60,314 nucleotides of DNA. It comes from Oscillospiraceae bacterium (GTDB taxonomy: Bacteria > Bacillota > Clostridia > Oscillospirales > Ruminococcaceae). Below are positions 24,167 to 47,837 of the stretch, in pieces. The notes below the pieces were generated by a model. It had not been told where the DNA came from and made no database searches. It worked only from the letters and a program-made list of their open reading frames with translations. Numbering within the stretch: position 1 is the stretch's first letter; every line of letters starts with the position of its first letter. A program made the position numbers and the translations under genes. The stretch spans positions 1 through 60,314 of the forward strand of contig JAFTVU010000048.1 of assembly GCA_017465665.1 (NCBI GenBank), read 5' to 3'.

Positions 24167-24256
24167 GTACTTTTGTTTCGTGTAACGTGATTAGCTAATT
24201 TACACATCAAGCTATGGTGAAGTTGCACAAAATTTATTTGAATATTCTTGTTTTTG

Positions 24257-24285
24257 TTGACAAATCGGTTTGTTTATGATACAAT
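24257..24285 (+). promoter_or_regulatory. Promoter of the EAL phosphodiesterase gene
   Basis: TTGACA (24257-24262) and TACAAT (24280-24285) are 17 bp apart, with an extended TG. A weak inverted repeat GTGTAA/TTACAC lies between this and the divergent promoter (24180-24205). The 374-bp gap between the two genes holds only these elements and the minus-strand leader. Confidence 0.82.
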
Positions 24286-24319
24286 TAATAAAGATAATAC
24301 ATTGGAGAGGAGTGTAGGT

Positions 24320-26992
24320 ATGATCGGAGGAAAACGTGTCATAGGTGTTTGTGTAACAAAGATACATGAGCGCTCCCGTGCCGAATTCGTACAAAAGCTC
24401 TTTAAAGCCGCACAGAAGTCTGATACCAAGGTAATGGTGTTCAACAGCGTGCTGGATTTTTACAAGGAAAAGGATGTCGAATGCGGCGCAAAGACTGTTT
24501 ACAGCCTTATAAATTACGATATCGTTGACGCTATCGTTATCTTCTCGCGCCATTTCTACAGCAAGGAGATATTTGACAGCATCGTTTCGGGCGCGCATGA
24601 GCGCAATATCCCTGTTATAGTTGTGGACGAAGTCGTTGAGGGCTGCTATTCCATAATCAAGGATTATACCGCAGCATATAAGCAGGTTATAGATCATGTC
24701 ATCACAGAGCATGGCGTTACCGACAGCTTTTATATTTCGGGCATCAGGGATGATCCCCAGTCGGAGGAGCGTATCGATTGCTACCGTGAGGTGCTGGAGG
24801 CGCATGGTCTCCCGTTCAGCAGGGAGCAGGTCGATTACGGCGAGTTCTGGGATATTCCCACTCAGATAGTCATGAACAAGCTGCTTGAGGACGGTAAGAA
24901 GCCGCCCCGTGCTATCTTCTGCGCGAATGACAGCATGGCTATTACTGTGTGCGAATATCTCCGCAAGGTGGGCTATACTGTTCCCGATGACGTTATCGTC
25001 ACAGGCTTTGACGGTATGCCCGATGCAAGGTATTACAATCCTCGTCTGACCACCTGCCTTGAGGATGTGGATCAGCTCGTGGATCTGTGTGTGGAGCTTG
25101 TGGAGGGCGCTCTTAACGGAACACATCCTGTCGGCGTCTATAAGGAAACGTATACTCCTCTTATCGCGTGCTCCTGCGGCTGTAACGTAGCGGATACCTC
25201 TGTAACAAAGGATGCGCTGGAGCTTTATAATGTAATGCAGAACTCCAACAGCCATGAAATGTATATGTATACATGGATAGACAGGATGATAGACTGCAAC
25301 GATATAGATTCTCTAAGGGAGTATACCCATCATTGTATACTTGCGTGCTCCTGTATGTGTGTAAAGTCCGAGGTCATCACATCCTCCGATTATCTCAACG
25401 GCAGGCTCAGCGTGGACAAGGACGACATGATGTATGCGATTCCCTCGCATAAGTATGATGACGGTATCGTTATGCTCCAGCCTTTCCCGTATGCGGAGAT
25501 GGCTCCTGATCTTGCACGCTGGGCGGATGAGGATAAGATCTATGTGTTCACCAGCGTATACGCGGGCAACGAGCCCTGCGGCTACTATGCTGTAAAGACA
25601 GACGATCTTGATGTTACCTGTCATCAGATAAACCGTCTTTGCAAGATACTTAATATCTCCTTTAACTCCACGCTGAAAACAGTGCGCCAGAACGCGCTGA
25701 GAAGAAAGATAGAGAACGCGTCCCTTATCAATCAGTACACGGGTCTTCCTAATCTTAAGGGACTTTCAAGATGGTTTGAGGATTTCAGCTCCGTGCCCGA
25801 AAACCATAACAGATCTCTTTCCGTATCCATCTACGGCTTGCCGAATTATCGCTTCATCTATGAGAATTACGGCATCAGGGATGTGGAGGAAGCGCTCCAG
25901 CATATCGCAGGTATGCTTCTGAGAGCAAATCCGAAGAACTGTGTGGTGGCGCATATTGCTCAGGAGGAGTTCGTTATTGTAAATTACTATGACGATCCTA
26001 ATGAGATCGGAGATACCATCAACGCCGCCACATCCGCTTACTTTGCGGAACAGAGCACTTACAATGAAAACAGCGGCAAGGATTATTACGTGGAGGTAAA
26101 CTGCGGATGTACGGTCATCAATCCGGGCTGGAACGATCCGCTTGCTACATATATCTCTCTTGCCAGCGGTGAAATGTACGTCAACCGCGTCAAGATGGGC
26201 ATCATCGAGGTTGAAAAGGAAAAGAAAGCTCCTGTTGAGAACTACGATGCTTTCCGCACACTGATAGACAAGAACCTGTTCAGCTATCACTTCCAGCCCA
26301 TCGTTGATGCAAGAACAGGCGATATATACGCTTACGAGGCGCTCATGCGTACAGATAAATCCATCGGCATGAATCCTCTGGAGGTGCTTGAGATAGCCCA
26401 GGCGTACAAGCGCCTATACGATATCGAGCGCGCTACTGTGTTCAACGTAATGGAGCGCTATGCAAAGGATAACGATAAGTTCTGCGGAAGAAAGGTGTTC
26501 ATCAACTCCATTCCGGGCAATATCCTAACCGCAGACGACGATCATGAGCTGTGCGAGAAATACGGCAGCTTTATGAATAATGTGGTATTCGAGATAACAG
26601 AGCAGAACAGCGTATCGGATGATGAGCTTGCTGCTATCAAGAATGTCGGAAATGTTCAGGGCACTAACGATATCGCCATTGATGATTACGGCACGGGTCA
26701 CTCCAATATCGTAAACCTCCTGCGCTATCAGCCGCAGATAATCAAGATAGACCGCTTCCTTATCACGGACGTGGATAAAGACGTGAACAAGCAGATGTTC
26801 GTCCGCAGTACGATAGATTTCGCGCGCATGAACAACATCAAGGTGCTTGCTGAGGGCGTTGAGACCGCAGAGGAACTGAGAACGGTCATCGATTTCGGCG
26901 TTGATTATGTTCAGGGCTACTACACAGGCAGACCTGCTCCCGAGCCTATCGCAGAGATAGCGCCTGAGATCAGAAAGGAATTTATCAGGTAA
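24320..26992 (+). CDS. EAL-domain c-di-GMP phosphodiesterase with LacI-type sensor and degenerate GGDEF domain
   Basis: The protein is 890 residues. Residues 1-300 form a periplasmic-binding-like domain of the LacI regulator type (FCANDSMAITVCEYLRKVGYTVPDDVIVTGFDG) but without a helix-turn-helix, signal or membrane segment. Around 470-630 lies a GGDEF-like fold whose signature reads AQEEF, so it is not expected to make c-di-GMP. Residues 645-885 are an EAL domain with YEALMR (about 672), FINS, FEITE, IDDYGTG, IKIDRF and LAEGVET, all needed for catalysis. It probably lowers c-di-GMP in response to a cytosolic sugar-like ligand. The ATG at 24320 was chosen because it follows GGAGAGGAG. The next gene encodes a giant flagellin. 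Confidence 0.9.
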   Translation: MIGGKRVIGVCVTKIHERSRAEFVQKLFKAAQKSDTKVMVFNSVLDFYKEKDVECGAKTVYSLINYDIVDAIVIFSRHFYSKEIFDSIVSGAHERNIPVIVVDEVVEGCYSIIKDYTAAYKQVIDHVITEHGVTDSFYISGIRDDPQSEERIDCYREVLEAHGLPFSREQVDYGEFWDIPTQIVMNKLLEDGKKPPRAIFCANDSMAITVCEYLRKVGYTVPDDVIVTGFDGMPDARYYNPRLTTCLEDVDQLVDLCVELVEGALNGTHPVGVYKETYTPLIACSCGCNVADTSVTKDALELYNVMQNSNSHEMYMYTWIDRMIDCNDIDSLREYTHHCILACSCMCVKSEVITSSDYLNGRLSVDKDDMMYAIPSHKYDDGIVMLQPFPYAEMAPDLARWADEDKIYVFTSVYAGNEPCGYYAVKTDDLDVTCHQINRLCKILNISFNSTLKTVRQNALRRKIENASLINQYTGLPNLKGLSRWFEDFSSVPENHNRSLSVSIYGLPNYRFIYENYGIRDVEEALQHIAGMLLRANPKNCVVAHIAQEEFVIVNYYDDPNEIGDTINAATSAYFAEQSTYNENSGKDYYVEVNCGCTVINPGWNDPLATYISLASGEMYVNRVKMGIIEVEKEKKAPVENYDAFRTLIDKNLFSYHFQPIVDARTGDIYAYEALMRTDKSIGMNPLEVLEIAQAYKRLYDIERATVFNVMERYAKDNDKFCGRKVFINSIPGNILTADDDHELCEKYGSFMNNVVFEITEQNSVSDDELAAIKNVGNVQGTNDIAIDDYGTGHSNIVNLLRYQPQIIKIDRFLITDVDKDVNKQMFVRSTIDFARMNNIKVLAEGVETAEELRTVIDFGVDYVQGYYTGRPAPEPIAEIAPEIRKEFIR

Positions 26993-27110: not shown

Positions 27111-27139
27111 TTGCAATCGGTGTCGGTTTGATGTATAAT
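27111..27139 (+). promoter_or_regulatory. Promoter of the giant flagellin gene (sigma-A type)
   Basis: TTGCAA (27111-27116) and TATAAT (27134-27139) are 17 bp apart. No flagellar sigma-28 consensus (TAAA-N15-GCCGATAA) was found in the gap. Confidence 0.72.
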
Positions 27140-27176
27140 TATTCTGTATTAATATATATTTCAGAGGTGTGTTGTA

Positions 27177-30100
27177 ATGGGTATGGTCATCCAGCACATG
27201 GCTTCCACGCAGATAGCTGTGGATAAGCAGCAGGATTCTCTAAAAAAGCTGAAAAAGGCGTCCGAGCGCCTTTCATCGGGATACAGGATAAACCGCGCGG
27301 CTGACGATGCGGCAGGCCTTGCTGTGTCTGAAAAGCTCCGTTCTATCAGAAGAGGACTTCGCCAGGGTCTGCGTAACATAGAAGATGGCATCGGCTTCGT
27401 ACGTACGGTAGAGGGCGCTTCACAGGAGATACACAATATGCTCCATCGCTTGAAAGAGCTTGCGGTGCAGTCCGCAAACGGCACCTATGACGATGATGTG
27501 GACAGGGAAGCGCTGGACCTTGAGTATCAGCAGATACTTGACGAGATAGATCAGATGACGGATAACGCGGATTTCAACGGTGTTCCGCTGTTTGAAAAGC
27601 ATCTTTCCGCTTTCGAGATGAACGAGGGCGATGTGCGCCATGATTCCGCCATAAAGATAAACAACAAGAACGATACTCTGGTGCTGGGCTACACGATAGA
27701 CGGCGTGGAGAAGCAGATAACCGTTGACATTCCCCACGGTACATATTCCGCAGAGGAGACCGCGGATATCATAGATACATACCTGTTCGAGCACGCGCCT
27801 GAGCTTATCATCGGCGTGAATACCGAGGGTCAGTTCACCATGCAGGCAGAGGGCGGCTCTGTGGATAATATCAGCGGCAATGCGGCTTCGCTGTTCTATA
27901 ATACCGTTGTTGGCTCATCTGACGGCTATCTGATGGGTGTTACATATTTCCCTGACGTACAAAGAGATGAGGTTGAAATATTAGCGAATACCAACGATGT
28001 TATGTCATTCCGTGTCGGAAATACTGACGACACACTCTATTCCGTAACCATCGACCCCGGCTCATATACCCGTGCAGAGCTTATCGACGCTATCAACGCA
28101 AAGATCGGCGCTGCGGGAATCCCCGGAAATGTAAAGGCTGTTGCGTGTGAAAATGACGATGGTCAGCAGATAATCGGTCTTGCCAGTGACAGCACCATAA
28201 CAGGTCTTTCAGGAAACTTCATCAGGCTGGACGGAATAACCTCGCCTATCTACGATATCAGCTTTTACGGTGATATCGATAATACCCCTGCGGAGCTTTC
28301 GGGAGCAAAGCGCATCCCCGACAATATGGTCATCGAGCGCAACAGAAACGATTATTTCGTGCTGAACCTCAAGTATTACGGTGACGATGCGTCACAGAAG
28401 TCAGGCACGATCAGGATAGATCTGCTTTCTCCCGACGAGAACGAGAAAGTCTATGCCACCCCTGCTGATCTTATCAGCACCATCCAGCAGCAGCTTGACG
28501 ATGCAGGCTATCCCTTTACTGCGTCAATAAACGGCAGAGGCGGTATTCAGATCACCTCCGATCAGTTCGGTAAGAAGTGCGAGGTGCGCCTTAACTCCAC
28601 AAATGTTCCCAGTAAGTATATGATATATGATCTGTTTGACGCAGGCTCGCTCAATGTGCTTACGCCGAGAGTATCAGACTCCTCCTATACCAGAGCCAGC
28701 TTCACCGCTTATAAGAAGCTGGGTCCGTCTGTATACGTTCCGCCCACTGAGAATACGCTGTCCTTTAATATTACTGTTTCCGATACCAACAGCTCTCCCG
28801 AGACAAATCACAGGGTAGATGTGGTCATCCCTTCTGGCACATACTCCACTACCGATGCTCTTGTGCAGACTATGAACGATTATCTTGATATAAATTATCC
28901 TGATATCGCAGACAAGCTGCAGTTCAGCATAGACGCCTCAAATACGCTGAAGCTGTACGCAGAGGGCAGTAACAGCAGCAAGATAGAGCGTATCGAGATA
29001 GACCCAACCTCCTCCGCATATTACAGACTTGTCGGCGGAGCAACGTATCACAATGCCTTTGATTTTGAGGACGGCTATGAGGAGCCTTATATCACCTCCT
29101 CCGATCAGATCGGTGGCGGCGGTGGTTCCTCATCGGGACGTAATAATGTAACAATGACTTCGGGTACTACTATACAGGGAACTTCGGAATCTCCCGGATT
29201 AAGTGTTACACAGAATCATCAGCAGGCGCAGCACATCACATATTCTGATATATCGCCTGTACCTGTAAAGGGTACCGCTACCTACAACAAAATAGAGGGC
29301 GTGGGTGGTAAGGGCGAGATCGTCGATCAGTCTCCTGCGACACTGACACTTCCGGGAATACTTACACAGTATACTGAGCCCGGTACATCATCTGAAGCTC
29401 GTACACTGCGCTTCACACTTGTGGACGATACAGGCAGCTACGATTATGAGATAGATATCCCCGCAGGCACAGACCGCAATACTGCCATAAACATGATAGC
29501 TTCCGAAGTCGGCGACAGGGCAACTGTCAGCACAAGCGGCAGCGATCTTACCATCACCACAAAATATGAGGGCGATCTGGCGGAGTTTACCTCGGTAAGC
29601 GGCTCGGCACTCACAAAGGCGAGCGAGAGCAGCCTTGCGCGTAAGTCGGGAGCTGTCATCGACAAGGATGCGAATATGGTGTATTTACCCGCGAAGAGCA
29701 CCATCAGCAACGCGCTTTCGCGTATTCCGTACACCGCGGACGCTTCCAATGACAGGCTCATCATGACCGCAGGTCAGCACAGCTATGACCTGACCCTTAC
29801 ACATAAGACCTATTCAACGCTGCAGGAGCTTGCGGATGAGATAAACGCGCAGATCGCCGCAGCGGACGGCGGCACAGCGGCAACCACCTTTGAGGTAGGC
29901 TCAAACGGAAAATCCCTTGTTATCACAGCTCCGCTCAAGGAAAAGGGCGGTATCAGCATCGATGATGCAAGCACCTGCCGCATTGCGTATACGCTCAACA
30001 AGGTGCCCACATCCACGCCTAACTACAATCCTGCAACTGGCAACGTGGAAAATCCTGCGTCCATGAGGGCGGAGGGTATCAGCACCCACTTCCCAAAGAC

Positions 30101-32339
30101 GGTGGATTCCACGAATAATACTATCACGATGGATTATACCCATCCCGATACCGTTGACCCCACGAGGACTGTCACCGAAACACTGACCATAACCATCCCC
30201 GACGGTACCTACAACAACGCTTCCGAGTTCACGAATGCCGTGAATTCCGCTATCGCGGCTGACCCTGCTCTCAGCGGCAAGATCACTGCAAGCTATGCGG
30301 ATTCGGGAAGCAACAAGGGTCTTACTTTCAAAACGGTGAACGGCGGCGCTGGCTATGAGCTCTCCAACTTAGGCGGTACATTCGGCGCGGATAAATACAT
30401 AGATAAGGCGGATACCACAGGCGGTACTGTTGACGAAGGCGCAAACGTTGTAAAATACCCTGCGAGCGCTTTCAATGAAAAGTACAGCACGCTCTTTACG
30501 GGAAGCGGACTGGAGATAAACGATTCCAACGATCACGTTGCGCTTACCATAAACGGCACTCTGTATGAGTTCGACATCGCTCACGGCACATACAAGGACA
30601 GCGCAGGCAGCACCTCTCTAACAGATCAGATCAGAAACGGACTTTCTGCGGCGGGAGTTACCGTAACGGACAGCGGCGGCACTCTCATGCTGGTCACTGA
30701 TGCTGTGGGCAATGGAACTTCGATACGGCTTGCCGCATCCAACACCGCGCCCTGCTTTATGAGAGCGGAAAACATAAAGGCGCCCGTTTCCGCTGCACGA
30801 GACAGCGAGGCATGCTATATTATCGGCGGTGTGAACTGCAGCTCCATCGAGATCAGGGAAAACCAGACCGATATGAGCTTCGATTACTCTCAGGACGGCA
30901 ACACATACAAGGTCGATGTCAGCGTAAGCACAGGTACATATACCGCGGCTTCTCTGGCACAGGCTATACAGGACAGCATCAATCAGACGCTCCCTGCAGG
31001 CGCTCTTGAGGTATATGTAAACAGCTATAACAATATCGGTATAAAGAGCGGCACGATCACTCCGCTGAGAAGTATATCAAACTTCAGCGGCAATCTGTTC
31101 GATACGGCATTCCAGACCGCAACCTACAGATACATTACACCGCACGATACGATCAAGGGAAGTTCCACTGATAAGTCACGCTCCTACATTATCGGCAGAA
31201 ATGACCTTTCTCCCGAAACAGCAGAGGAGATGTCGTCAGGATCAAACGTTATCATCTATCCTGCGCTGAATGACCAGTTTATATTTGATCTGCAGTATAA
31301 CGGCATCAAATACAAGGTGGAATTTACCATTCCTGCAGGCGAATACGGACCTCAGGAGCTGGCTGCCGCTATTGAGCAGGCGGGCAGGGATACTCTCAAC
31401 AACCTTACTGATCAGAACGGTGATCCGTTCCCTCAGGATGCGTTCAGAGCCACAATAGGACTAAAGGCTATCGGCACTTCAGAGAATAACACATCCATAA
31501 AGAGCGAGGACAAGCTGGTGCTCAGCTTCGGCATACCCGACGACGGTAAGGTGGATGATATGCTGTGCATAATCGACGGTGTGCGCGGCAGCGCTGCTTA
31601 TCGTATCTTCTATGCCGCTACACAGTCGCCTACGCCCTCAAAGGTCATCGGCAAGGCAGACCTTACAAACGGTGTGATGATAACCGCAGGCGAGAACGAT
31701 ACTTTCAGCTACACGCTTGACGGCACGGAATACTCCGTGACCATACCTGAGGACACCTACACCTGCGATGAGCTGTACGAATATCTGAACGGGCAGTACG
31801 AGGCTATGGGCAGTATGGTGCGCTGCACCAACATGGACGGACACCTGATGTTCTATACCATCGAAAACGGTGCGTACGATATCGATGTGTTCAAAGGCAA
31901 TGCGGCTGATACGCTGTTCTACGGCGGAGAAAAGCGCGAATCCGATACCGAGATAGGCATTCACACAGGCAGAAGAACAGATACTTATATCTGGTATCTC
32001 AGGACCCGTGTGGACGACCACCTCATGCGTATAAACACAACAGGCATCACTACCGCGGAACGTGCAATAAAGGCAATGGACAGAGTGGATGCGGCGGTGA
32101 ATTATCTATCACGCTGGCGCGCGCTTTCAGGTGCAAACGAGAACCGCTCCCGTCATACCTACGAAAGAAATACGGAATATATTGCAAACCTTGAATCCGC
32201 TGATGCAGAGCTGCGCGATGCAGATATCGCAAAGGAAGCAGCCGAGCTTGCAAAGCAGCAGATACTCATTCAGGCACAGAATGCGATGATAGAGCAGAGC
32301 AAGCAGCAGCACAGCTCCATAATGGACGTGCTGGCATGA
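27177..32339 (+). CDS. Giant flagellin (1,720 residues) with repeated central modules
   Basis: Residues 1-140 are a standard flagellin N-domain (KKLKKASERLSSGYRINRAADDAAGL, RNIEDGIGFVRTVEGA, LKELAVQSANGTY). The last 85 are the matching C-domain (RNTEYIANLESADAELRDADIAKE, QNAMIEQSKQQ). These helices form the filament core. Between them about 1,450 residues replace the usual short D2/D3 region. They contain about eleven modules spaced 105-140 residues apart, each with a strand ending in I-P-x-G-T-Y, a helix and a second strand; GTY-like sites lie near 188, 295, 424, 554, 762, 876, 1008, 1136, 1251, 1386 and 1524. A Gly/Ser run lies near 646. Ordinary flagellins have 280-550 residues. There is no HExxH, so it is not a flagellinolysin. 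No other flagellar gene is in the window. Confidence 0.93.
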   Translation: MGMVIQHMASTQIAVDKQQDSLKKLKKASERLSSGYRINRAADDAAGLAVSEKLRSIRRGLRQGLRNIEDGIGFVRTVEGASQEIHNMLHRLKELAVQSANGTYDDDVDREALDLEYQQILDEIDQMTDNADFNGVPLFEKHLSAFEMNEGDVRHDSAIKINNKNDTLVLGYTIDGVEKQITVDIPHGTYSAEETADIIDTYLFEHAPELIIGVNTEGQFTMQAEGGSVDNISGNAASLFYNTVVGSSDGYLMGVTYFPDVQRDEVEILANTNDVMSFRVGNTDDTLYSVTIDPGSYTRAELIDAINAKIGAAGIPGNVKAVACENDDGQQIIGLASDSTITGLSGNFIRLDGITSPIYDISFYGDIDNTPAELSGAKRIPDNMVIERNRNDYFVLNLKYYGDDASQKSGTIRIDLLSPDENEKVYATPADLISTIQQQLDDAGYPFTASINGRGGIQITSDQFGKKCEVRLNSTNVPSKYMIYDLFDAGSLNVLTPRVSDSSYTRASFTAYKKLGPSVYVPPTENTLSFNITVSDTNSSPETNHRVDVVIPSGTYSTTDALVQTMNDYLDINYPDIADKLQFSIDASNTLKLYAEGSNSSKIERIEIDPTSSAYYRLVGGATYHNAFDFEDGYEEPYITSSDQIGGGGGSSSGRNNVTMTSGTTIQGTSESPGLSVTQNHQQAQHITYSDISPVPVKGTATYNKIEGVGGKGEIVDQSPATLTLPGILTQYTEPGTSSEARTLRFTLVDDTGSYDYEIDIPAGTDRNTAINMIASEVGDRATVSTSGSDLTITTKYEGDLAEFTSVSGSALTKASESSLARKSGAVIDKDANMVYLPAKSTISNALSRIPYTADASNDRLIMTAGQHSYDLTLTHKTYSTLQELADEINAQIAAADGGTAATTFEVGSNGKSLVITAPLKEKGGISIDDASTCRIAYTLNKVPTSTPNYNPATGNVENPASMRAEGISTHFPKTVDSTNNTITMDYTHPDTVDPTRTVTETLTITIPDGTYNNASEFTNAVNSAIAADPALSGKITASYADSGSNKGLTFKTVNGGAGYELSNLGGTFGADKYIDKADTTGGTVDEGANVVKYPASAFNEKYSTLFTGSGLEINDSNDHVALTINGTLYEFDIAHGTYKDSAGSTSLTDQIRNGLSAAGVTVTDSGGTLMLVTDAVGNGTSIRLAASNTAPCFMRAENIKAPVSAARDSEACYIIGGVNCSSIEIRENQTDMSFDYSQDGNTYKVDVSVSTGTYTAASLAQAIQDSINQTLPAGALEVYVNSYNNIGIKSGTITPLRSISNFSGNLFDTAFQTATYRYITPHDTIKGSSTDKSRSYIIGRNDLSPETAEEMSSGSNVIIYPALNDQFIFDLQYNGIKYKVEFTIPAGEYGPQELAAAIEQAGRDTLNNLTDQNGDPFPQDAFRATIGLKAIGTSENNTSIKSEDKLVLSFGIPDDGKVDDMLCIIDGVRGSAAYRIFYAATQSPTPSKVIGKADLTNGVMITAGENDTFSYTLDGTEYSVTIPEDTYTCDELYEYLNGQYEAMGSMVRCTNMDGHLMFYTIENGAYDIDVFKGNAADTLFYGGEKRESDTEIGIHTGRRTDTYIWYLRTRVDDHLMRINTTGITTAERAIKAMDRVDAAVNYLSRWRALSGANENRSRHTYERNTEYIANLESADAELRDADIAKEAAELAKQQILIQAQNAMIEQSKQQHSSIMDVLA

Positions 32340-32350
32340 TGAAAAGAAAT

Positions 32351-32393
32351 ATCCCCGTGATACGGCATTGCCACGTCACGGGGATGTTGTTTT
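32351..32393. terminator. Bidirectional terminator
   Basis: ATCCCCGTGA (32351-32360) pairs perfectly with TCACGGGGAT (32376-32385), followed by GTTGTTTTA. It separates the flagellin and the convergent flavodoxin-like gene. Confidence 0.82.
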
Positions 32394-44422: not shown

Positions 44423-45151
44423 ATGAGCTACATACAGAGCTTCCGCAGATATGAAACGAAATATCTGTTAACGGAGGAACAGGCGGAGCGGCTCCTTGCA
44501 CTGACAGGAGAGCTTCTTACACCCGACCGCTACGGTGATTACACCATCTGCAACCTTTACCTTGATACGGATGATTTTTACTTCATTCAGCGCTCGCTGG
44601 ACAAACCGAAGTACAAGGAAAAGCTGAGGCTCCGCAGCTACGGCAATGCAGACGGAGAGCAGCAGGTGTTCCTTGAGATAAAAAAGAAATACCGCGGTGT
44701 GGTGTACAAGCGCAGGATAACGCTTCCATGTAGCGAGGCAATGGAGTATCTGACAAAGGGCGTGAAGCCGCCATCCGTAAACACGCCGATGACAGAGCAG
44801 ATATTCGCGGAGATAGACTTTATCATGCAGCGGTACAGACCGACTCCGAAAGTATATCTCGCATACGACAGGCTTGCGTTCTTCTCGAAGAAGTATCCGC
44901 AGCTGAGAGTTACTCTTGATAACGGCATACGCAGCCGCTGGGAGGATATCACGCTTTCCCGTGACAGCGGCGCAGTTTTTCTTGACACGGGAGTAAACGA
45001 TTACCGACTGATGGAGATAAAATCGGACGGTGCGATACCCCTTGAGCTTGCACGGATACTTTCTCAGCTTGAGATATATCCCACATCATTCTCAAAATAC
45101 GGCAATATCTACATGAACGCTGTCCGCAGCGGAAAGGAAATACTTTTATGA
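44423..45151 (+). CDS. VTC-domain polyphosphate polymerase-like protein
   Basis: This 242-residue cytosolic protein has a VTC tunnel-fold domain. Characteristic strands are RRYETKYLLTEEQAERLL (residues about 8-25), ICNLYLDTDDFYFIQRSLDKPKYKEKLRLRSYG, VFLEIKKKYRGVVYKRRITL, YLAYDRLAF and LMEIKSDGAIP. The alternating Arg/Lys and Glu residues line the tunnel where yeast Vtc4 polymerises ATP gamma-phosphate into polyphosphate. Activity here is inferred. Its stop overlaps the start of the DUF4956 gene by 4 nt. VTC, DUF4956 and CotH genes recur together in Firmicutes. Confidence 0.88.
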   Translation: MSYIQSFRRYETKYLLTEEQAERLLALTGELLTPDRYGDYTICNLYLDTDDFYFIQRSLDKPKYKEKLRLRSYGNADGEQQVFLEIKKKYRGVVYKRRITLPCSEAMEYLTKGVKPPSVNTPMTEQIFAEIDFIMQRYRPTPKVYLAYDRLAFFSKKYPQLRVTLDNGIRSRWEDITLSRDSGAVFLDTGVNDYRLMEIKSDGAIPLELARILSQLEIYPTSFSKYGNIYMNAVRSGKEILL

Positions 45152-45819
45152 CAGAATTCATCTTCAATAAAACAGAAATACTTTCGGGCTTCCCGACAGC
45201 CTTAGCCGCTGTTGGAGTTACGCTGCTGTGCGGTATTATATGTGCCGTAGTGTACAGGCTGGGCGCTGACCGTCCATCAAAATACATGATGATAACATCC
45301 ATCATCATGCCGACCATCGTTGCCTCCGTCATCACTATGGTGAACGGCAGCATCGGCGCAGGCGTGGCTGCGGCAGGTGCGTTCAGTCTTGTGCGTTTCC
45401 GCTCCATCCCGGGCAGCTCCCGTGATATCTGTATGCTGTTCATGGGCATGGCAGCAGGTCTTGTGGCAGGTATGGGATATATCGGCTATGCGCTTGCGCT
45501 TACATTGCTGCTGGGTATCGTGGTAGCGGCAGTGGAAATGCTGCTACCGGGCGGAAAGCACCGCAGGCAGCTCAGGATATCCGTGCCTGAGGACATGGAC
45601 TACAACGGCATCTTTGACGAGGTGCTGAAAGAATACACCTCCTCCTACCGCCTTGACCACGTTAAGACAGTGCGAATGGGAACGATGTACGAGCTGGTGT
45701 ATGAGATATTCATGAAAAAGAGCGCATCCGAAAAGGATATGATAGACAAGCTGCGCTGCCGCAACGGAAACCTGACGATAAGTCTCGGAATGGTTCCCGA
45801 TACCAAGGACGAGCTGTAA
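45148..45819 (+). CDS. DUF4956 membrane protein
   Basis: The product is 223 residues with about four membrane helices in the first 130 (near 12-33, 45-65, 68-90 and 98-125). Between them lies the conserved GAFSLVRFRSIPGSSRDICMLFMGMAAGL, diagnostic of DUF4956. The C-terminal 85 residues are cytosolic and ferredoxin-like (RQLRISVPEDMDYNGIFDEVLKEYT). The function is unknown. Its position between a polyphosphate-polymerase-like protein and a secreted CotH kinase suggests a membrane partner linking the two. The start overlaps the VTC gene stop (ATGA). Confidence 0.88.
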   Translation: MTEFIFNKTEILSGFPTALAAVGVTLLCGIICAVVYRLGADRPSKYMMITSIIMPTIVASVITMVNGSIGAGVAAAGAFSLVRFRSIPGSSRDICMLFMGMAAGLVAGMGYIGYALALTLLLGIVVAAVEMLLPGGKHRRQLRISVPEDMDYNGIFDEVLKEYTSSYRLDHVKTVRMGTMYELVYEIFMKKSASEKDMIDKLRCRNGNLTISLGMVPDTKDEL

Positions 45820-45833
45820 GAAAGGAGCAATAT

Positions 45834-47837
45834 ATGCGTAACAGAAGAATACTTCCGCTCACTTCGCTGCTGCTGGCAGGTATAATTGCGGTAACAGGCT
45901 GCTCTGATACGACTGTATCGGGCGGCATCGAAAACACATCTTCCACCACTTCGGCTGCAACAACGGTGAGCGGTGACGCTGCAACAAGCGACGCTCCCGC
46001 AGCAGAGAGCGCCGAGGCTCAGCCCGAGGAGGAAGCAGAGGTGCTTCCGCCATCCGTTCAACTTTCGCATGACAGCGGCATCTATGCGGAGGAGTTCCGG
46101 CTAACGCTGACAGGACTTGAAAGCGGAACTGTCTACTACACGCTGGACGGCAGCGACCCTGCCGTAAGCTCCACCGCCATTGAATATACAGCGCCCGTAA
46201 GCATAACGGACAGAGCGGACGCCGCCAACGTTGTCTCCGCCGTTGACCCTGTGCTGATAGCAGGCAGCTTCAACAAGCCCAACAAGGAAAGAAACGGCTT
46301 CGTCAGCGAGCTGTACGCTCCCGAGGACGAGGATGTGGATAAATGCACCGTGATACGCACTGCAGTGAAGCTTGCTGACGGCACGTTTGCAGGTGAAGCA
46401 TCCGCCACATATTTCATCGGCACTGCCGAGGAGCACATTGCAGGTCTTGCGGAAAGCTGTGCCGCTGCTGGCGGAAGTCTTGCCGTTATCAGCCTTTCCA
46501 TGAACTATGACGATCTGTTCGGCAGCGAGAGCGGTATCTATGTAAAGGGAGATATCTTCGACAAGGCGCTGGAGGAGTTCCTCATAGAGGAAAAGCGTGT
46601 GCGTGACGGCGAGAAAGCACGCTCACTTGACGCAAACTACAAACAGCGCGGCAGAGAATGGGAACGCGAAGCGGCTATGGTGATGTTCGAGTTTGACGAG
46701 AACGGAGCAACACAGGTGCTCAGCCAGAACTGCGGTGTGAGGATTCAGGGCAACTATTCACGTTCCGATATCCAGAAAGGTCTGCGCCTGTACGCAAGAA
46801 AGGAATACGGCGACAATAACTTCCGCTACGCAGTGTTCGGAGAGGATTACCTCAACGATGAAGGCGATGTGATGGATAAATACAAGACGCTGGTGCTTCG
46901 TGCGGGCGGAAACTGCGCGTTCACAGCGAAGTTCAATGATACCTACTGGCAGTCGCTCCTGCACGACTCAGCGTGTGAGACAAAGCAGTCGCGTCCCTGC
47001 GTGGTGTACCTCAACGGCGAGTACTGGGGTCTTTACGTGCTGGAGGAGGATTATTCCAACGACTTCTTCGAGGATGTGCACGGCGTAAACAAGGACAATG
47101 TGGTGGTATACAAGGGCGACGCTGAGACCTACGCACTCGGCTACAAGCTGGACGAGGGTGATATCCCCGAGGGCGAGGATGAGGACTACTACTTCAGTGA
47201 GCTGACAGCTTTCTTCGATACGCACACCGATCTAAAAGATCAGGCGGCGTATGAGGAGTTCGTGAAGCTTGTCGACCCCGAATCTGTGCGCGATTACTTC
47301 GCAGTGAACGTGTGGATAAACAACAAATGGGACTGGCCGGGCAAGAACTGGTCCATGTGGAAAGTGACCGTGACCGAGGACGGCAACCCCTACGGCGACG
47401 GCAGATGGCGTTTCTGCCTGTATGATATTGAGTTCGGCGGTGTAGGAGGCGGCGGTGAGGCACGCACCAACACCATCAAGGAGGATAACTACAAGCCTAA
47501 CGGTCTGCTGGATATGGATACGAACAACCCCGCAGTTCTGTGCTTTGCTTACCTCATGACCAACGAGGGCTTCCGTACGGATTTCTATGACCGCCTGCTT
47601 GGTCTTTCCGAGGGCGAGTTTGAAAAGACCGCGGCACTGGAAAAGCTCTCCGAGTTCGAGGATATCTACGGTCCTCTGTATGAGCAGTTCTTCACCAGAT
47701 ACCCCGAAACGGGCGATGCAGACGGCGCGCTCAACGGCGGCTACGCAAGCTCTGCGTGCATCAGGGATTTTATCAGCAACAGAAGCGGTAATATCCAGAG
47801 GATGATAGACTGGTGCGAGAAGATACTTAATAAATAA
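45834..47837 (+). CDS. CotH kinase-family lipoprotein with chitobiase-like C-terminal repeat domain
   Basis: This 667-residue lipoprotein has lipobox AVTGC (cysteine about 21) and an acidic linker to residue 70. It then has a CHB_HEX_C-type Ig domain (SGTVYYTLDGSDPAVSSTAIEYTAPV, about 98-125). Residues about 220-630 are the CotH domain: FDENGATQVLSQNCGVRIQGN, KTLVLRAGGN, VVYLNGEYWGLYVLEEDY, then the catalytic region NVWINNKWDWPGKNWSMWK and RFCLYDIEFGG. CotH proteins are atypical secreted protein kinases. Here it would phosphorylate surface proteins. It is the last gene of the VTC operon, 14 bp after DUF4956. Confidence 0.9.
   Translation: MRNRRILPLTSLLLAGIIAVTGCSDTTVSGGIENTSSTTSAATTVSGDAATSDAPAAESAEAQPEEEAEVLPPSVQLSHDSGIYAEEFRLTLTGLESGTVYYTLDGSDPAVSSTAIEYTAPVSITDRADAANVVSAVDPVLIAGSFNKPNKERNGFVSELYAPEDEDVDKCTVIRTAVKLADGTFAGEASATYFIGTAEEHIAGLAESCAAAGGSLAVISLSMNYDDLFGSESGIYVKGDIFDKALEEFLIEEKRVRDGEKARSLDANYKQRGREWEREAAMVMFEFDENGATQVLSQNCGVRIQGNYSRSDIQKGLRLYARKEYGDNNFRYAVFGEDYLNDEGDVMDKYKTLVLRAGGNCAFTAKFNDTYWQSLLHDSACETKQSRPCVVYLNGEYWGLYVLEEDYSNDFFEDVHGVNKDNVVVYKGDAETYALGYKLDEGDIPEGEDEDYYFSELTAFFDTHTDLKDQAAYEEFVKLVDPESVRDYFAVNVWINNKWDWPGKNWSMWKVTVTEDGNPYGDGRWRFCLYDIEFGGVGGGGEARTNTIKEDNYKPNGLLDMDTNNPAVLCFAYLMTNEGFRTDFYDRLLGLSEGEFEKTAALEKLSEFEDIYGPLYEQFFTRYPETGDADGALNGGYASSACIRDFISNRSGNIQRMIDWCEKILNK

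Follow-up and report, generated by a model that had tools for sequence, protein, structure and literature searches.

Giant flagellins of Oceanospirillales have been described by Thomson et al. (2018), among them those of Bermanella marisrubri (1,020 aa) and Oleibacter marinus (1,190 aa), and the Bermanella protein builds a filament at least 30 nm thick (PMC6248924). That paper names a giant flagellin of the Firmicutes in Eubacterium plexicaudatum, and one of its section headings calls the advantage of oversized flagellins unclear. In flagellinolysin, another large flagellin, the insert has gained a further function (PMC7643111). Sheaths formed by outer domains consist of surface domains that touch each other (PMC8931119), and such a contact network is needed for motility in viscous media (PMC10256154). 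Flagellin diversity and filament structure are reviewed in PMC7018530 and PMC9254593.

The gene described here lies in the window, a stretch of 60,314 nucleotides on contig JAFTVU010000048.1 of an Oscillospiraceae genome assembly (GCA_017465665.1), and encodes a flagellin of 1,720 residues. Like the Oceanospirillales giants (PMC6248924), it has core ends round a very large, internally duplicated insert and belongs to a flagellated host. It differs from them in being 1.4-1.7 times as long, in occurring in gut Clostridia, mostly alongside ordinary flagellins, and in its fixed module number: the Oceanospirillales proteins carry one or two DE regions plus a DX insert, whereas the insert here consists of eleven modules of the IN/FliD type. 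Thick filaments have been demonstrated for the Oceanospirillales giants. Giant flagellins as such are thus already known (PMC6248924). The eleven-module plan, its fixed number, a reversed pattern of conservation and two promoter classes are apparently new, and were not found in the open-licence literature among the matches listed, including the excerpts of PMC6248924, PMC7018530 and PMC9254593.

The gene and its flagellin ends

The open reading frame comprises 1,720 uninterrupted codons (27177-32339, +). A frameshift check had been set beforehand in the earlier note, and neither a stop nor a frameshift was found; nine colinear full-length orthologues of similar length in other assemblies speak against an assembly artefact, and on these grounds a frameshift or chimera was rejected. 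Flagellin_N matches residues 6-141 (E 7.9e-33) and Flagellin_C residues 1634-1719 (E 9.3e-11), both above their Pfam cut-offs, which bears out the earlier note's reading of intact N- and C-terminal core domains enclosing an insert. Between residues 141 and 1634, no Pfam family exceeded its cut-off in the window's protein. With flagellin ends and a length above 1,000 aa, the protein counts as a giant flagellin.

The best flagellin model scored 152.4 bits against 71.2 for the FlgL model, a lead of 81 bits with both below their full-length cut-offs, and in a tree of the cores a 100/100 branch separated FlgL from the giants and the ordinary flagellins. The giants' cores are divergent, with Flagellin_C scores of 36-57 bits compared with 101-108 in four full-length ordinary C-terminal ends, and the 'AQANQ' stretch of ordinary C-terminal ends is missing from them. 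Flagellinolysin is matched in the core only: its model NF033876 reached 25.9 bits against a cut-off of 205, confined to residues 113-150. Judged by homology, the two ends, the core tree and the accompanying flagellar genes all identify the protein as a flagellin. The features of the locus are as follows.

27111..27139 (+): candidate sigma-A-type promoter TTGCAA-N17-TATAAT (hexamers 27111-27116 and 27134-27139), moderate at 10/12 matches
27163..27169 (+): probable ribosome-binding site AGAGGTG, read by eye, no score
27177..32339 (+): giant flagellin gene, 1,720 aa, from its open frame and Flagellin_N/Flagellin_C
27177..27602 (+): N-terminal flagellin core (D0/D1), residues 1-142, from Flagellin_N at 6-141
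27648..27890 (+): module 1, residues 158-238 (for this and all other modules, from hhalign, the module HMM and predicted structure)
27969..28211 (+): module 2, residues 265-345
28368..28610 (+): module 3, residues 398-478, without the IPxGTY motif
28746..28988 (+): module 4, residues 524-604
29148..29288 (+): segment between modules 4 and 5, residues 658-704, eight short predicted strands in the AlphaFold model
29376..29618 (+): module 5, residues 734-814
29718..29960 (+): module 6, residues 848-928
30114..30356 (+): module 7, residues 980-1060
30495..30737 (+): module 8, residues 1107-1187
30843..31085 (+): module 9, residues 1223-1303
31248..31490 (+): module 10, residues 1358-1438, second half of low confidence in the model
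31662..31904 (+): module 11, residues 1496-1576
31938..32075 (+): conserved stem back into D1, residues 1588-1633, 79% mean pairwise identity in ten giants
32076..32336 (+): C-terminal flagellin core (D1/D0), residues 1634-1720, from Flagellin_C
32351..32393 (+): terminator-like hairpin, 10-bp stem and T run, read by eye, no score

Since the terminator-like hairpin with its T run follows directly on the gene, the giant flagellin is probably transcribed alone. None of 27 scanned neighbours in the window has a flagellar Pfam domain (scanned at E 1 for some and E 1e-8 for others; 6 of the 27 without any match), in agreement with the earlier remark that no other flagellar gene is nearby. The gene immediately upstream (24248-26992, +) combines a LacI-type sugar-sensor domain with GGDEF and EAL domains, and a c-di-GMP link to the giant flagellin through this protein is possible. 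At locus L011 a LacI-type sensor gene likewise lies upstream of the giant, but in the orientation opposite to the window's. The ORF lists of seven other giant loci, ten of whose proteins were domain-scanned, revealed no common neighbour. Further along the window (44423-47837, +), genes for a VTC domain protein, DUF4956 and a CotH kinase stand in series, a cluster of the polyphosphate/spore-coat type.

Eleven modules: repetition, conservation and predicted fold

BLASTP of the giant flagellin against itself returned nothing off the diagonal, though profile comparison was positive for similarity between modules. Eleven windows were placed around the strand/GTY/helix pattern, aligned over eight orthologues apiece and compared by hhalign; 47 of the 55 module pairs scored above the best of 330 column-shuffled controls (24.1); choosing windows by motif favours real pairs somewhat, and column shuffling does not undo this choice. 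The probability exceeded 90 in 25 pairs, and most of these 25 best alignments were in register. An HMM of the module built from six giants included eleven modules in each of those six and also in each of four left-out full-length giants (G092, G111, G190, G199). The 'about eleven' units first proposed can therefore be given as exactly eleven. The I-P-x-G-T-Y motif said to be common to them is exact in modules 1, 4 and 7 only; the others carry variants and module 3 has none. Within the window's protein, the other modules are 14-29% identical to module 11, compared with 42-63% for modules at the same place across ten giants, so the duplications are older than the eleven-module giant family.

The ten giants have a mean pairwise identity of 64% (N core), 53% (insert) and 51% (C core), with the highest value of five regions in the stem (residues 1588-1633, 79%) and the lowest at residues 637-720 (35%). 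The surface part of the giant is thus held about as tightly as its C core. This is the reverse of what 12 ordinary flagellins display (N core 73%, centre 38% over its aligned part only, C core 75%), a set taken from the family or from giant-bearing genomes after 3 of 14 sources had dropped out. By the NG86 method, dN/dS of the insert is 0.078 (G092/G199) and 0.111 (G111/G190), and values of 0.032-0.092 in the cores place both ends under purifying selection.

AlphaFold models of residues 1-655 (mean pLDDT 60, pTM 0.27) and 640-1720 (66, 0.33) have low overall confidence, as does the placing of the modules relative to each other. All eleven modules are nevertheless predicted as strand-strand-(strand)-helix-strand-strand-strand. 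Much of the second half of module 10 falls below pLDDT 50, and the model shows eight short strands at residues 658-704, which belong to the variable region separating modules 4 and 5.

Compared with PDB sequences, the pooled module profile gave FliD of P. aeruginosa as its best match (5fhy, E 1.6e-4), followed by protein S (0.0011), Vibrio flagellin D (0.055) and then weaker, mostly unrelated chains; unlike the pooled profile, the profile of the whole insert found nothing flagellar in the PDB. Foldseek with the model of residues 640-1720 ranked H. pylori FliD first (6iwy, E 4.0e-5). Its best 20 rows hold 14 FliD or cap-complex entries, three Vibrio flagellins and three unrelated chains (ranks 3, 10 and 16), and the matches include the outer domains of Vibrio cholerae and P. 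aeruginosa flagellins (9n8a, 4nx9). TM-scores are low (at most 0.37 by target among the best 50 rows) because the domains are not placed alike. Methods based on sequence and on predicted fold thus both point to the kind of outer domain that is common to FliD and some flagellins. FliD itself is a separate cap protein, and the giant's modules resemble its D2/D3 domains and the flagellin hook IN motif (PF07196). The latter family (Flagellin_IN, cut-off 22.7 bits) is above cut-off in two of six giants (L011, 27.0 bits; L013, 22.8 bits) and below it in L010 and L012; L009 and the window's protein have no match, for the window at E 10. The outer domains of the V. cholerae and P. aeruginosa flagellins are of the same general kind as the modules and lie on the filament surface. 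Vibrio and Pseudomonas flagellins have far fewer of them than eleven; the Vibrio chains are about 377 aa long.

At E 0.01, the module HMM matched neither the ordinary flagellins nor the FliD, FlgK and FlgL of the giant's own MAG. Other long flagellins of the family, at L049 (G215:C183) and L050-L052, with frames of 985-1,312 aa, are also without these modules at E 0.01, which suggests several independent increases in size. A phage family of unknown function, phrog_19400, matches 14 of 66 single modules (best E 1.5e-6) and all six whole inserts. A phage source of the modules was considered and rejected, the insert having no match in phage records or in a scan of viral contigs. The window's module 11 gave nothing below E 0.7 in the phage search, and module 11 of L012 gave weak tail-fibre matches only (E 0.04).

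Flagellar genes, distribution and promoters

The giant's MAG encodes, over NCBIfam cut-offs, FliA, FlgK, FliM, FliQ and a rod protein, and FlhA is also present; FliD and FliS exceed their Pfam cut-offs, while FlgL, FliR and a MotA-like stator stay under theirs. The flagellar export genes that the earlier note proposed to look for elsewhere in the genome were found on other contigs of this MAG. Its FliD (L016 5074-7503, -) has 809 aa with about 400 residues between the N- and C-terminal Pfam domains, and a gene for a DUF6470 protein (L016 8226-8843, -) adjoins FlgL in the flagellar cluster. Another contig carries two ordinary flagellins of 309 and 366 aa. FlhA is present in 10 of 11 giant-bearing genomes tested and was not found in the giant-bearing MAG G396.

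The MAG is 97.92% complete and 8.79% contaminated. A foreign contig in a contaminated MAG is spoken against by tetranucleotide profiles, in which the window's flanks correlate at 0.91-0.93 with the flagellar contigs versus 0.55-0.81 with seven other genomes; G+C, which is higher in the window (0.51) than in the flagellar contigs (0.42-0.48), does not settle the matter. The profile of the giant gene resembles that of its own flanks (0.89-0.90). The contig with the ordinary flagellins (L014, C44) has a G+C of 0.42 against 0.51 in the window, yet a tetranucleotide correlation of 0.92.

Whole ordinary flagellins occur in the same assembly as a giant in G000, G092, G111, G190, G397, G398 and G399. 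We withdrew an initial view of the giant as sole flagellin in four genomes when pieces of ordinary flagellins were found in G254, G396 and G400, leaving G199 (given as 100% complete, 110 contigs), where the giant and FlgL were the only proteins with flagellin ends found; each of the other ten giant-bearing genomes contains at least part of an ordinary flagellin. Because these pieces surfaced only in a Flagellin_C search, two of them at contig ends, the ordinary flagellin of G199 may be missing from its assembly. At the site of G002's flagellin, the neighbours are intact in G199 and the flagellin is absent, as it is there in G342 and G400. A short C-terminal piece of an ordinary flagellin also lies mid-contig at L112 (G254:C224, 819-1007), either as a remnant or as the product of an assembly join.

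The insert was found in 3 of 148 genomes of the same family. An alignment query identified at least 7 of 396 family genomes with a giant (G000, G301, G092, G111, G199, G190, G254) and a flagellin-like match of any kind in at least 113; these counts are lower bounds, two best candidates per genome having been scored. The giant of G254 is broken and present in two pieces. Five named MAGs carry giants, two of them Oscillospiraceae (goat colon and water deer caecum). With the giants of L010 and G301, which have identical HMM scores, counted once, there are ten distinct full-length giants including the window's, of 1,689-1,720 residues with chosen starts; the nine in other genomes have eleven modules each and share 48-51% identity with that of the window. 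Four further species of the same genus as the window that carry flagellins (G180, G240, G333, G371) showed no giant among the matches listed. At E 1e-60, an order-level sample of 394 genomes contained the window's giant only, and a class-level sample of 391 contained one more, G1110, in another family, with a frame of 1,824 aa. This cousin has nine clear modules, two more that match where modules 3 and 5 would be expected but are not significant alone (E 0.35 and 0.12), and in addition two weak fragments. In the core tree it sits with the giants (95/80) on a long branch.

The genealogy of the giants does not follow that of FlhA. In one genus, G199 and G301 have FlhA proteins 91% identical and giants 55% identical, whereas G199 and G092, of two genera, share 87% in both; transfer, or loss of old copies, would explain this pattern.

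Promoter sites were predicted as matches to consensus words. The earlier note described the promoter as sigma-A-like instead of sigma-28, and this fits the window's copy moderately: TTGCAA-N17-TATAAT matches at 10/12, a score reached by 20 of 200 shuffles, and no sigma-28 site was found, the best sigma-28-like candidate (8/12) being reached by 193 of 200. The description does not extend to the family. Six of the ten giants (G301/L010, L011, G092, G111, G199, G190) have a sigma-28-like site at 11-12/12, reached by 0-2 of 200 Markov shuffles, while L009, L012 and L013 have a perfect TTGACA-N17-TATAAT (0/200 shuffles) without a sigma-28 site. The two ordinary flagellins of the giant's MAG have sigma-28-like sites at 10/12 and 11/12 and G1110 has a promoter-like site at 10/12, all three scored without a shuffle control. 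Some flagellin genes use promoters other than sigma-28. In a full-length tree the giants separate without exception according to promoter class (83/86), in agreement with a single promoter switch, but in the core-only tree L011, of the sigma-28 class, groups with L009, L012 and L013 of the sigma-A class at 96/88, and we do not retain a single switch.

A proposed thick filament and its alternatives

We propose that the giant flagellin is probably a filament subunit and that, by itself or together with ordinary flagellin, it builds a thick filament covered by a shell; we infer its export, assembly, shell, thickness and function. By homology, the D0/D1 ends would pack into the filament wall as in any flagellin. 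The chain would leave D1 near residue 145, place its eleven IN/FliD-like modules outside the wall and return through the stem at 1588-1633. That the modules lie on the filament surface, as suggested at the outset, has good support from the core domains, from the similarity between the modules and the outer domains of flagellin and FliD, and from the flagellar genes of the MAG. Adjacent modules may touch and form a thick outer shell, and such contacts would account for an insert that retains its module number, order and sequence. A shell of touching parts, like the outer-domain sheaths of PMC8931119 and the contact network of PMC10256154, agrees with the constant module count and the strong purifying selection. 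The filament may be unusually thick and stiff, and suited to swimming in mucus or digesta.

Flagellar filaments have 11 protofilaments, a 5.2-nm repeat and a core radius of 6.5 nm. From this geometry and 110 Da per residue, rough arithmetic gives an estimated diameter of 26 nm for a solid shell and of 35, 40 and 53 nm at assumed packing of 50, 37 and 20%, respectively. Given the two ordinary flagellins in the MAG, a single filament may contain both kinds of subunit, intermixed or in separate zones, or the cell may change from one type of filament to another. Transcription of the window's gene would depend on the housekeeping sigma factor, and that of six of the ten giants on sigma-28.

In a considerably less probable arrangement the filament consists mostly of ordinary flagellin, and the giant is confined to a short segment, at the base, at the tip or in a late-grown zone, that alters stiffness or stickiness. 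Ordinary flagellins, whole in seven assemblies and as pieces in three, accompany most giants, the giants' cores are divergent, and in the window, L009, L012 and L013 the promoter is of another kind, which would permit a different timing of expression; however, no other flagellin was seen in G199, and the sigma-28-like sites in 6/10 giants make co-expression with ordinary flagellin likely there. We regard as unlikely a secreted or surface-held flagellin-like adhesin that no longer forms filaments and attaches through its modules to mucin, plant fibre or other cells. Adhesins typically carry a long stalk of tandem modules, and this plan, the sigma-A-type promoters in 3-4 of ten giants and the phrog_19400 matches in 14/66 modules are compatible with such a reading, but both core ends are under purifying selection (dN/dS 0.03-0.09) and the best fold matches are flagellar caps and outer domains. 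Moreover, no ligand-binding or anchoring family exceeds its cut-off in the giants: the binding-type matches are all weak (GalBD_like in L009, E 0.018; X25 in the window, E 0.22; CFSR in one member, E 5.2), and the earlier suggestion of fibre or mucin binding, or of adhesion, found no support.

Two further readings are very improbable. The resemblance of the modules to FliD D2/D3 in sequence and fold would suit a cap- or junction-like protein of the FliD/FlgL type with few copies per filament, but the same MAG has separate FliD, FlgK and FlgL genes and the core tree places the giants with flagellins rather than with FlgL. That the window's copy is a decaying or unexpressed relic would agree with the lack of a sigma-28 site, an only moderate sigma-A-like site and the four flagellin-bearing congeners without a giant among the matches listed; against this, the 1,720-codon frame is open and all 11 modules and the conserved positions are kept.

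Beyond a thick filament built by the giant flagellin, we tentatively raise a less likely extension: gut Clostridia may possess a dedicated second type of filament, made of a giant flagellin whose shell is fixed at eleven modules and whose gene has, in some lineages, moved from the sigma-28 regulon to the housekeeping sigma factor. Such a shell would be kept by module contacts and evolve as a structural part of a machine, unlike the hypervariable surface of flagellins. Flagellin centres usually vary fast; here eleven modules stand in order in ten genomes of several genera, and a similar plan recurs in the cousin G1110 of another family. Preservation of the modules in order under strong purifying selection points to a structural role of the whole shell. 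With two promoter classes, giant flagellins that belong to the sigma-28 regulon can be compared naturally with those that do not, and this well-preserved variant is well suited to asking why oversized flagella exist in some bacteria. If a second filament type does exist, cells would be able to alter how stiff or sticky their flagella are, or what surface they present, separately from the normal flagellar programme.
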